This document shows positions 3,645 to 31,301 of a DNA stretch of 64,000 bases, piece by piece. Every line of letters begins with the position of its first letter. The stretch's first letter is position 1. Both the position numbers and the translations under genes were made by a program. The notes under the pieces were generated by a model that was given only the letters and a program-made list of their open reading frames with translations, did no database searches and was not told where the DNA came from. This DNA comes from Eutypa lata (lineage: Eukaryota; Ascomycota; Sordariomycetes; Xylariales; Diatrypaceae): positions 4,335,001-4,399,000 of the forward strand of contig JAKULF010000006.1 of NCBI GenBank assembly GCA_022661535.1. The letters run 5' to 3'.

Positions 3645-5081
3645 ATGCGGTTCTCAACAGTCACCTTCCAGGTCCTCGGCGGCGCGGCCGCTCTGGCTTC
3701 TGCCGCGGCCGTCTCGAACAAGCGAGCCGCGGACTCCATCCTCGTCGGCCTGCCGCTCGCGGACTTCCCCTTGATGGACACGGTGTCGTTCGAAGAAGCA
3801 GAAGAGCAGCTCGCCAACCAGAACGCCACCGAGCCGTCGCCCACCGACGGCGCCAACGACGGGATGTCGTTCACCGACGCCGTCCTCCCCGGCGGGCCGT
3901 GCAAGAACCCTTCGATCCGCGTCGAATGGCGCAACATGAAGAACGCGGATAGACACGGCTTCCTCAACGGCGTCAAGTGCCTGATGGACAAGGCCCCGTC
4001 TGGGAAATTCCCTGCCGCGAAGAACCGGTACGAGGACATCGTCTCCGGTAAGCATTTTTCGAAGTGGTTTAGTTGCCTTTGTCGTAGCCAAATTCGGCAT
4101 CTCCAGTTTTAAGTACTTATAGGGGTTTGTTCAGGAGGATCTCTCCTGAATGGCTAACTTTCACACCTCGCTACTATATACCCGTAAAGACGCAATTGCT
4201 GACTTTAGACCTTGTAGTTCATCAGCAGATGGCGTCTAAGATCCATGGAAGCGGCCTGTTCCTGCCGTGGCACCGGTACTACGCCTGGGTATTCATGCGA
4301 ACCATGCGGCAGGAGTGCGGCTACCAGGGGCCTTACCCATGGTGGGACGAGACTAAGGACGCGGGTCATTTTGCCCAGTCGCCCCTGTTCACCTCCGAAT
4401 ATTTCGGCTCCCTTCCGGCGGCAACCAACGGACGGGCCACCTGTATTACCAACGGCGTGAGTACAGACAGAACACGACCCTGAGTGTATGCGCATGTATA
4501 TTTTGCTAATACATTGTTTTTTCCCCTTGGCGCAGGCTTTCGCTGGTCGGACTCTGCATATAGGACCCCAAACTTCCAACACGGCTCACTGCCTAGCACG
4601 GGCAGTGGACGAGAATTCGTCGGCCGGCGTCACCCAGGCCTATGCAGATAACTGCAACTCGCGTGGTACCTATACCGACATGGAGGGGTGCAACGAACTA
4701 GGGTAAGTTTGATGAACGGAACCAACCAACCAACCAACCACCCAAATGAATCGTCACACCATTGCTAACACGCGTACGCCCTACAGCCCTCACGGTCTCG
4801 GCCATAACGCCGTCGGCGCCGTAATGGGAGACGTCGCGTCGTCGCCCGGCGACCCCATCTTCTTCCTGCACCACGCCTTCGTCGACCGCATGTGGCGCAA
4901 GTGGCAGATCAAGCAAGATTCGCGGCTGCGGACGATCAGCGGGTGCGCGACGCCTGGGTCCAACTGCCAGCCCCTGACGCTCGATACTAAGCTGACCTCC
5001 ATGGGCATCAAGGAGGACAGGGTAGTGGGCGACATGATGGACATCTATAATAACGTGCTGTGCTATCTTTATGACTACTAA
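3645..5081 (+). CDS. Secreted tyrosinase (type-3 copper phenol oxidase)
   Basis: Predicted to oxidise mono- or diphenols to quinones outside the cell. Four exons join in phase: 3645-4047, 4218-4456, 4536-4702 and 4787-5081, giving 367 residues. The ATG at 3645 is preferred to the in-frame 3591 start because it begins directly with a signal peptide (MRFSTVTFQ followed by an Ala-rich stretch). CuA ligands read as His136, His144 and His153 (the last in FLPWHRYY); CuB ligands as His272, His276 and His298/299 in DPIFFLHHAFVDRMW. All introns are GT-AG. The length fits short secreted fungal tyrosinases that lack the long C-terminal latency domain. A role in pigment, lignin-phenol or secondary metabolism cannot be separated from sequence alone. 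Confidence 0.93.
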
Positions 5082-28918: not shown

Positions 28919-30024
28919 TAGATTATAAGATTCTGTTGGTCTGTAAGGAAGAAAGGTTGGGGAAAGAAGGACAACAGAGTGTCTCCTGTTAAAATACTCA
29001 ACTTTGTGCACAACGACTGTGGCGTACGAGATTATTTCTTTGTTCTATCAAAAATCGAGATTATCAGTTCATTGACGTCTGACTTGGACATACACAAAGA
29101 ATAAGTGGGCAGTGCACAAAGCGTGCTTCAGCTCGCTTTAGGTATGAGCATCCCAACTTGAATCTCCGTGATCTTTTACGATACTAGGTTATTAAACTTG
29201 CGACATACGTCAAATGATAACTATTGTTTAGATGAAAAGGGTTGATTCCGTGGCCAAGAGCTTTTACTACGTGGGCTTGAAAGTTTGAACGTTTTAACGG
29301 ATGCAAGCTATTGGCAAGTCAGTACAATGAAATTGGGGGACATAGATCATATTTAGACTACTACTCATACAATCGCATCCAAGATGATTCCTACAAATAT
29401 CTGATCGAGCTTGCTCTAAACCCGCTTAATGATTTTCCGTAGTTAGTATCTTAGCTGCGAGACTGTAACACCGTGTATCCATTCCAAACATAGTCTCATC
29501 ACCAGGCACAAGATGTCACCCATTACTCGATGATACATCTTGTGATAAAAGCATAGAGCATGAGTCAGCGGCTGATAAGCGCTCACCTGTCATAGGACTT
29601 CCCCGGGCAGATCGGTGTGCCCAGGGAAACATTATAAACCTTCAACCCCATTAAATTCGAACTAGTTTGTTATTACTGCAATGAAACCAGGATGGGTTAC
29701 CTGGAAAAAAGCCTTGTAAGTAAAGAAGAGAAGGTATTTATACCTAGAGAAAATATAACATAATATTCACATAAAACCAATAAATACATGTAGAAGTGGC
29801 ATCGTGGCAGTGGGTAGATGAGGCCTGCGGATGATGGTTAAAAACTGACAGCTATGGCAGGTGGCGTTCAGCTGCATGGATGGAAGAAATACACGGGGAA
29901 TTCTCGGAAGACTAGTAAATAAATAAAACCACGCAGCCCATATAATTGTCAAAGAAAGCAAAATCTTCAACACAGTCAGCTTACGACGGCGTGTCACTAC
30001 TAGCAATGGTAGTGGCACTACGTG
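28919..30024. other. Intergenic
   Basis: No protein gene supported. An 83-residue minus frame at 29767-30018 has one hydrophobic stretch but no other support. GTGTCAC-type short repeats occur from 29990 to 30055, running into the tRNA. Confidence 0.45.
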
Positions 30025-30159
30025 TCACCTCTGGCGCAATGGCAGCGTGTCACTTTCCGGTGGTGAAGGCTCTCGGTTCGAGTAAGTTGAAACCAAATTA
30101 GGATTTCATCCCTCCAGCAAGCAGTTTAACTAACCAACTCATAGGTCCGGGGAGGTGAG
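30025..30159 (+). tRNA. tRNA-Arg(CCG) interrupted in the T-loop
   Basis: Exon 1 is 30025-30081 and exon 2 is 30145-30159. The acceptor stem pairs TCACCTC (30025-30031) with GAGGTGA (30152-30158), seven of seven. The D stem is GCGC/GCGT (30034-30037, 30045-30048) with loop AATGGCA. The anticodon stem is TCACT/GGTGA with loop TTCCGGT, so the anticodon CCG (30057-30059) reads codon CGG. The T stem is CTCGG (30072-30076) with CCGGG (30147-30151), and the loop TTCGA+GT closes only after removing 30082-30144. Invariant bases U8, A14, G18G19, A21, U33, U54U55C56, A58 and the G53-C61 pair are all present. The A box TGGCGCAATGG and the B-box core GGTTCGA are intact, and a T-run terminator follows. Mature length is 72 nt with discriminator G. 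A dead gene invaded by an insertion cannot be excluded, but no stem is damaged. Confidence 0.85.
30082..30144 (+). other. 63-base intron in tRNA T-loop (GT-AG type)
   Basis: It starts GTAAGT, has ACTAAC at 30129-30134 and ends CATAG, the same signals as the mRNA introns in this window. It lies between tRNA positions 58 and 59. Because G occurs at both 30082 and 30145, the cut could slide by one base. A five-pair helix AGTTG (30085-30089)/CAACT (30135-30139) exists, but the loops around it are 8 and 7 bases, not the 3-base bulges of an archaeal bulge-helix-bulge. Confidence 0.75.
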
Positions 30160-30174
30160 CTTCATCTAGCATTC

Positions 30175-30205
30175 TTTTTTTGTTTTTTTGTTTTCCCTTT
30201 TTCAT
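30175..30205 (+). terminator. RNA polymerase III poly-T terminator
   Basis: Runs of T (seven, then seven, then four or more) begin 16 bases after the tRNA 3' end. Four or more T are enough for Pol III in fungi. Confidence 0.75.
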
Positions 30206-31301
30206 TCTTTGTTTCTCTTTCTTTGTTAATAGGCTAGTGAAAAGTCTGCTGTTATTTTCACTGGATATGTGCCGTCTATGAAGAGGGGTAGATGAAATGT
30301 TGATGCCTCAGGCATCATTCTTAGTTTGAGTCTAGATGGGTTTCCACTTTAGCCATCCCCTGGACCCCTATCATATGTGGGGCCGCCGCAGACGCCCACG
30401 ATATCATGGAAACCCCTCATTTTTATGATATACGAATATATACGGCCTAACCCTCCGCTCATTGTGGTTTCTCTAGCAGCTAGGTGGTGATGGCAGCAGG
30501 TCAAATCGTCGAACAGACTAGAGCAATGTCTCGTCATCCAATAAGTCGCGAAACTACTGTTACCTTTGCCTAGCTGTCGTCGACCCTAGGAATTTCCTTT
30601 GACCAGGAAATCTTTTGACACAATAACCCTTCGTTTCACTCTAGTCGTGCCTCATATGTATCATTAGCACTCGAAAGTCAGGGCTAGAAAGTTGGAAGGG
30701 GCGGCTCTTAGTAACTGAGCTTACCTTGACTTCATTTGCGGGAAATACAGGGGTACCTACGTTCTGACCAATGCAGTGAGAGTGTTGTAGGCTGAATTCT
30801 AGGGGTTCAATAATACGATGTTACAGAGGTCGATCACACAAGGCCATTATAGTTCTGACAGTTGGAAAAGTTTAACTGGTTTCAATTTTTAGGTTTATAA
30901 GCTAATCTGGTGGTATTGGTAGGTCGAATGACGTGTTGGACTACATGAGGTAGCGAGAGTCTGACGACCTCATCCATCAAGATTCTCGTATTTAAAGATG
31001 TGTCCCAATTCTGCTTTGTAGTGGTGAGTAATATATAGCAAGAGGTGGACAGGAAGGGGTCATGCATATCATCGACCGATTTGCACGATTAACTAGTGTT
31101 TTCCTTCGCCTTGTGGTGTTGTAAGTTGATAGTGGTTGAGCCGTTGCCACTTGAATTGGCCTGGAAGTGAATAGGATCCTCCGGAAGAACCTTAGAGTCT
31201 AATAGGTTGCAAAATACCAATAGAGAAGCTCGAATGCGTATCGAGAGCGACTAACAAGTAGCTGCTATGTATACACGGAGTTGGAAAGTCTCCTGGGGAG
31301 T
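30206..31301. other. Intergenic
   Basis: No gene seen. It continues T-rich to about 30235 and then becomes mixed sequence up to the 3' end of the PHD gene. Confidence 0.5.

Follow-up and report, generated by a model that had tools for sequence, protein, structure and literature searches.

A nuclear tRNA-Arg(CCG) gene of Eutypa lata interrupted in its T-loop by an insert with spliceosomal intron signals

Introns in eukaryotic nuclear tRNA genes canonically lie at positions 37/38, and T-arm introns of the bulge-helix-bulge type are known in archaeal tRNA genes. Introns of U6 genes are reportedly the subject of papers by Tani and Ohshima (1989, 1991) and Frendewey (1990), and those of Schizosaccharomyces are said, in the title of one study, to match the B-box consensus. 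Passages of PMC10484740 describe mRNA-type introns in the U6 snRNA genes of fission yeast, and passages of PMC8527467 describe spliceosomal introns in the rDNA of lichen fungi together with the removal of such an intron from Pol I rRNA by yeast. Ectopic tRNA introns of the red alga Cyanidioschyzon merolae are presented in parts of PMC9602550 and PMC3978253 as bulge-helix-bulge substrates of the tRNA endonuclease; they include a T-arm intron at 53/54, and GT-branch-AG signals are not among the features described in those parts. A passage of PMC9602550 adds that the U55 enzyme of C. merolae is inactive on precursors with a T-arm intron.

We identified in Eutypa lata a tRNA-Arg(CCG) gene whose T-loop is interrupted by an insert of 63 nt (Table 1). 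It lies within a stretch of 64,000 nucleotides, the whole of which is referred to here as the window. With the fission yeast U6 genes it shares the splitting of a Pol III gene by a short GT-AG intron with a branch site; here, however, the host RNA is a tRNA, and the insert abuts the internal B box whereas the U6 intron contains one. The lichen introns, as described in the passages of PMC8527467, resemble it in that the spliceosome acts on a non-Pol II RNA, although that RNA is Pol I rRNA there and a tRNA here. With the ectopic introns of C. merolae and of archaea the insert shares its place in a tRNA T-arm, and with the canonical 37/38 introns the interruption of a nuclear tRNA gene, although it differs from the latter in position, size and signals. 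We class as new here an mRNA-type intron in a tRNA, and as already known mRNA-type introns in Pol III genes and T-arm introns in tRNAs; a literature search, with most subscription journals outside it, found no case of a spliceosomal intron in a tRNA gene. The reading that we consider probable is a nuclear tRNA-Arg(CCG) gene, split in its T-loop at 58/59, for whose likely Pol III precursor we predict splicing by the spliceosome. We give roughly even chances to the further proposal that this is the first nuclear tRNA to need the spliceosome for its maturation, its 5′ splice-site GT serving at the same time as promoter positions 59-60; a GT-AG intron would then sit at the very edge of a B box, promoter and intron sharing letters.

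Table 1 Features of the split tRNA-Arg(CCG) locus (positions in the window)
Feature	Position	Strand	Remarks	Basis
tRNA-Arg(CCG) exon 1	30025..30081	+	57 nt; tRNA positions 1-58; acceptor 5′ strand, D-arm, anticodon arm, variable loop, T-stem 5′ strand, TTCGA of T-loop	ARAGORN on joined exons and pair-aware score
A box TGGCGCAATGG	30032..30042	+	positions 8-19	sequence
Anticodon CCG	30057..30059	+		ARAGORN
B box as in DNA GGTTCGAGTAA	30075..30085	+	intron GT fills positions 59-60	sequence
Insert with spliceosomal intron signals	30082..30144	+	63 nt; between positions 58 and 59	
5′ splice site GTAAGT	30082..30087	+		
Branch-site motif ACTAAC	30129..30134	+	presumed branch A 30133, 11 nt before insert end	
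3′ splice site TAG	30142..30144	+		
tRNA-Arg(CCG) exon 2	30145..30159	+	15 nt; positions 59-73; GT of T-loop, T-stem 3′ strand, acceptor 3′ strand, discriminator G	ARAGORN and pair-aware score
T7 run	30175..30181	+	likely Pol III terminator; second T7 at 30183-30189	

Joining the exons gives a tRNA-Arg(CCG) of 72 bases with discriminator G, in which the acceptor stem (7/7), D-stem (4/4), anticodon stem (5/5) and T-stem (5/5) are complete, giving 21/21 pairs. ARAGORN calls tRNA-Arg(CCG) on the joined form, makes no call on the genomic form and finds 0 tRNAs over the whole window as it stands, which bears out the cloverleaf that the initial annotation had proposed after removal of the insert. 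The three G-U pairs it had counted are present as well, although they are spread over the D-, anticodon and T-stem, one apiece, and are not confined to the T-stem as it had placed them. By eye the tertiary partners also fit (T8-A14, A15-T48, G18-T55, G19-C56, G26-A44 and T54-A58), and with the insert removed the locus has the complete cloverleaf and the invariant bases of a nuclear tRNA. The junction is A58|G59, and since GT stands at both edges of the cut, shifting it by 0-2 bases leaves the product unchanged. Three copies of the heptamer GTGTCAC lie within exon 1 or immediately ahead of it (at 29991, 30022 and 30047; region 29990-30053), with a small hairpin, CACTAC..GTAGTG, between the first two.

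To score these forms against genuine tRNAs we drew on a genome-wide tRNA search in which 63 of 1970 candidates were scored, the resulting list being incomplete. It gave 62 tRNA matches; 50 were fetched and typed, the 12 on contigs C3, C23 and C25 being left out, and 29 of the 50 were taken as nuclear, by contig. Eighteen of the 29 were used for a model, after dropping seven duplicates or near-duplicates, two class II Ser tRNAs, L022 and L023. The genomic form, for which a covariance-model check had been suggested, scores 17.6 bits with the Rfam tRNA model against a gathering score of 29, and 24.9 bits with the 18-tRNA model, with the acceptor and T-stem broken. A pair-aware score from the same 18 tRNAs is 70.2 for the joined form, 18.7 for the unspliced form and -5.8 for the best of 20,000 shuffles. 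The leave-one-out scores of the 18 range from 42.9 to 90.8 and the joined form, above only 2/18, sits toward the low end of genuine tRNA scores.

Cuts made elsewhere in the window served as controls. Among intron-like cuts with a branch-site motif one in 173 yields a tRNA, and that one is the cut at 30082-30144, while GT..AG cuts of 40-120 nt yield a tRNA call in two cases out of 34,732, the same cut and one that gives tRNA-Pro at 3756-3829. With the 5′ splice site fixed at 30082, ARAGORN makes a call for three of the 21 AG ends that lie 30-400 nt away; all stems are complete only with the 63-nt cut, the 395- and 398-nt cuts having mismatches in the acceptor and T-stem. The cut controls and the shuffles together rule out a chance alignment as the source of the cloverleaf.

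The insert, which reads GTAAGT...ACTAAC...CATAG, has the GT..AG ends, the branch site near the 3′ end and the local intron size of a spliceosomal (mRNA-type, U2) intron. For comparison we used two introns, of 54 and 77 nt, in a window gene (18060 onward) that was named Naa15-like after its relatives in a protein search and whose intron calls are backed by the 831-residue open frame that joining produces. These introns read GTAAGC..ACTAAC..TTAG and GTAACG..GCTAAT..ATAG, and the distance from branch to end is 12 and 19 nt in them, 11 nt in the insert and 11 nt in an intron of the U6 gene of this genome (see below). The likeness to nearby mRNA introns that had been noted initially extends to signals and size in the two introns compared. 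The sole genome match of the insert is its own locus, which rules out an introner-like copy, and the genome search found no donor copy. A group I or II self-splicing intron is likewise rejected, on the length of 63 nt and the lack of an Rfam match: catalytic intron families gave none in the window at gathering scores, nor in 29980-30220 at E up to 10. The junction at A58|G59 is also not that of a canonical eukaryotic tRNA intron (37/38).

We found no bulge-helix-bulge (3-nt bulge, 4-bp helix, 3-nt bulge) at the junction in 12 register and bulge settings, the central pairs reaching at most 3/4 in either geometry and the flanking helices at most 3/4 in the one geometry for which they were computed. 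The absence of the motif from the cut sites, already remarked on in the initial annotation, leads us to reject a bulge-helix-bulge tRNA intron within the settings tried. It also counts against removal of the insert by the tRNA splicing endonuclease, or by another nuclease together with a tRNA ligase, as for the ectopic introns of red algae and nucleomorphs. We know of no role for GT..ACTAAC..TAG signals with the tRNA splicing endonuclease, and the introns that ARAGORN reports in 15/29 nuclear tRNAs are all in the anticodon loop, the sole place where it looks for introns. Although the C. merolae T-arm intron at 53/54 (in parts of PMC9602550) and the many Guillardia nucleomorph ectopic introns without a defined bulge-helix-bulge (in parts of PMC3978253) lend it some precedent, we regard such a route as very improbable.

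The promoter elements considered are the A and B boxes of Table 1, compared with their consensus sequences. The A box and the T run are present, the distance from A to B box equals that of an intronless gene, and the B box GGTTCGAGTAA keeps 8/10 of the defined letters of GGTTCGANTCC, the last two differing, with the junction at its 3′ edge. A regex scan for the strict B box (GWTCRANNC) found none in 29900-30600 on either strand, compared with 28 in the whole window, again on both strands. Downstream, the poly-T reported in the initial annotation is confirmed as a run of T7, and no run of at least four T occurs from 30025 to 30174. Stretches of 150 nt free of T4 are frequent in the window (3823/6385) and their presence at the locus is therefore weak evidence, consistent with Pol III transcription without being telling. 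Because the last two letters of the B box are changed and the strict scan is empty, Pol III transcription may be weak or absent; from the elements that are kept, we infer that Pol III is still able to transcribe the split gene, if perhaps only at a low level. The interrupted B box and the mRNA-type splice signals would also suit a Pol II transcript spliced as ordinary RNA, its tRNA-like product then being released or serving as a structured element. With the A box, most of the B box and the T7 run at their expected places, and with no ORF of at least 150 amino acids (the lower limit of the ORFs listed) overlapping 30025-30189 on either strand, we hold this origin to be improbable.

A second split Pol III gene bears on the predicted splicing of the tRNA precursor by the spliceosome. 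A U6 search of the genome (54.5 Mb), in which 47 of 2960 candidates were scored, gave one match, and judged by its sequence this U6 gene (L053, G000:C1:1132945-1133057 and upstream, minus strand) is split by an mRNA-type intron of 55 nt. The intron reads GTTAGT..TCTAAC..ACAG and lies between GATACAG and AGAAGATTAGC, inside ACAG|AGA. The Rfam U6 alignment is good only from ACAGAGAAG / ACAGAGAAGATTAGC on, the match taking in intron sequence instead of the 5′ exon; immediately before the 55-nt stretch lies a 5′ exon with the ending TTGAAACGATACAG, which fits the consensus line of the alignment. The U6 intron holds CATTCGATTCT, a partial B-box match by eye (7/10 defined letters) that is not counted by the regex scan, which found no strict B box around the gene; a B-box match is likewise what the Schizosaccharomyces introns reportedly have. 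Of the other RNAs sought, SRP RNA, also a Pol III RNA and here matched as Fungi_SRP, is without an intron (296 nt matched for 293 positions; 26/288 candidates scored), which counts against the proposed reading, and RNase P RNA was not found among 15/2450 candidates scored. The mRNA-type intron of the U6 gene makes it likely that the spliceosome has access to Pol III precursors in this organism, and from the U6 and rDNA precedents spliceosomal action on a Pol III tRNA precursor would call only for a new substrate and no new machinery. The initial annotation had left open whether the spliceosome or another enzyme removes the segment or whether the gene has been silenced. The splice signals with the local intron size, the lack of a bulge-helix-bulge and the split U6 gene add weight to the spliceosome; silence is weakened by other features (see below).

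Whether the split gene is needed depends in part on the other tRNA-Arg genes. The joined sequence matches only its own locus in the genome, and an anticodon-to-B-box pattern gave 22 matches without an intronless tRNA (by ARAGORN). A strict pattern for the 5′ half of a CCG tRNA has 14 matches, two of them with a complete D-stem (the split gene and L094); none of the 14 is called by ARAGORN in unmodified form, and the model gives L094 only 11 bits. A looser pattern, whose backbone fits 18/18 tRNAs of the model set compared with 12/18 for the stricter one, gave 139 matches against 134 for its control; among the 100 of these 139 that were listed, the D-stem is complete in two, the split gene and G000:C5:2780916, and has 3/4 pairs in 12 further places. 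From the looser pattern came L108 (G000:C5:2780900-2781070), a tRNA-Arg with a 21-nt anticodon-loop intron that scores 42.4 bits with the model. Its anticodon is CCG if the canonical cut falls after 37, although ARAGORN prints CCT with the intron at 34/35, and we consider it a candidate second tRNA-Arg(CCG). The proposition that the split gene is the only CCG gene of the genome, at first supported, is rejected in view of the candidate L108. L064 is a weak third candidate, called Arg(ccg) by ARAGORN with a 102-nt insert at 33/34, and the tRNA-Arg(TCG) genes L032 and L033 are present, whose product could read CGG by wobble. Since L108, L064 and the tRNA-Arg(TCG) genes are present the split gene need not work, and it is probably not essential.

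Two further kinds of tRNA-like sequence were observed in these searches. L056 (G000:C2:2418961) and L064 (G000:C8:3783103) are homologous, with ends that pair, a 3-bp D-arm with a long loop, an intact T-arm and B box, a T-rich tail and anticodon-region inserts of 97 and 102 nt that have stretches in common. ARAGORN types them as Glu(ttc) and Arg(ccg), the model gives 14.3 and 19.7 bits, and no Rfam match overlaps either at E up to 0.5; we take them as another tRNA-like family, possibly an undescribed Pol III RNA or a tRNA-derived element. L063 (G000:C7:1603954-1604006) fits both the anticodon-to-B-box and the looser CCG patterns, is called by neither ARAGORN nor the model and is perhaps a decayed tRNA.

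A search for other tRNA genes split by GT-AG inserts used T-loop-plus-GTRNGT patterns, which can detect only 58/59 junctions followed by GTRNGT, and only where the variable loop is short. They gave 8 and 7 matches (controls 16 and 13), and 1/15 makes a tRNA, that at 30025-30159, so within the scope of this search the split gene is a single case. A lone case whose insert is unique in the genome would also be expected of a tRNA-Arg gene recently invaded by an intron-like segment and now silent, its stems intact as little time has passed. L108 could then carry the function, and the missing strict B box and the low-end tRNA score of the joined form point the same way. However, all 21 pairs and the tertiary bases are kept, the insert retains all of its splice signals at an exact junction and the T run is in place, and we consider a silent gene unlikely, while giving it appreciable weight. 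The argument made initially, that intact stems speak against long inactivity, holds to the extent that these features weaken silence; the lack of a strict B box and the existence of L108 pull the other way.

If the split gene is spliced by the spliceosome as we propose, TFIIIC would still bind it: the A box, the spacing of A and B box and 8/10 defined B-box letters all fall no further downstream than the junction, and the initial GT of the insert would take the place of positions 59-60. Pol III would read through the T4-free insert as far as the T7 run and the spliceosome would take out the insert as a lariat. Splicing would presumably precede T-loop modification and end trimming, an order that the behaviour of the C. 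merolae U55 enzyme, as given in the passage of PMC9602550, would fit. The intron may have arrived by reverse splicing into the tRNA, to name one example of a route. The splicing of tRNA and of mRNA are taught as separate pathways, and a spliceosome-dependent tRNA, if true, would join the two. Genes of this kind would escape tRNA finders, and the locus would serve as a natural test of the point at which Pol III transcripts encounter the spliceosome. With a split tRNA gene and a split U6 gene in one genome, it would become possible to test in a single organism how Pol III genes acquire introns.
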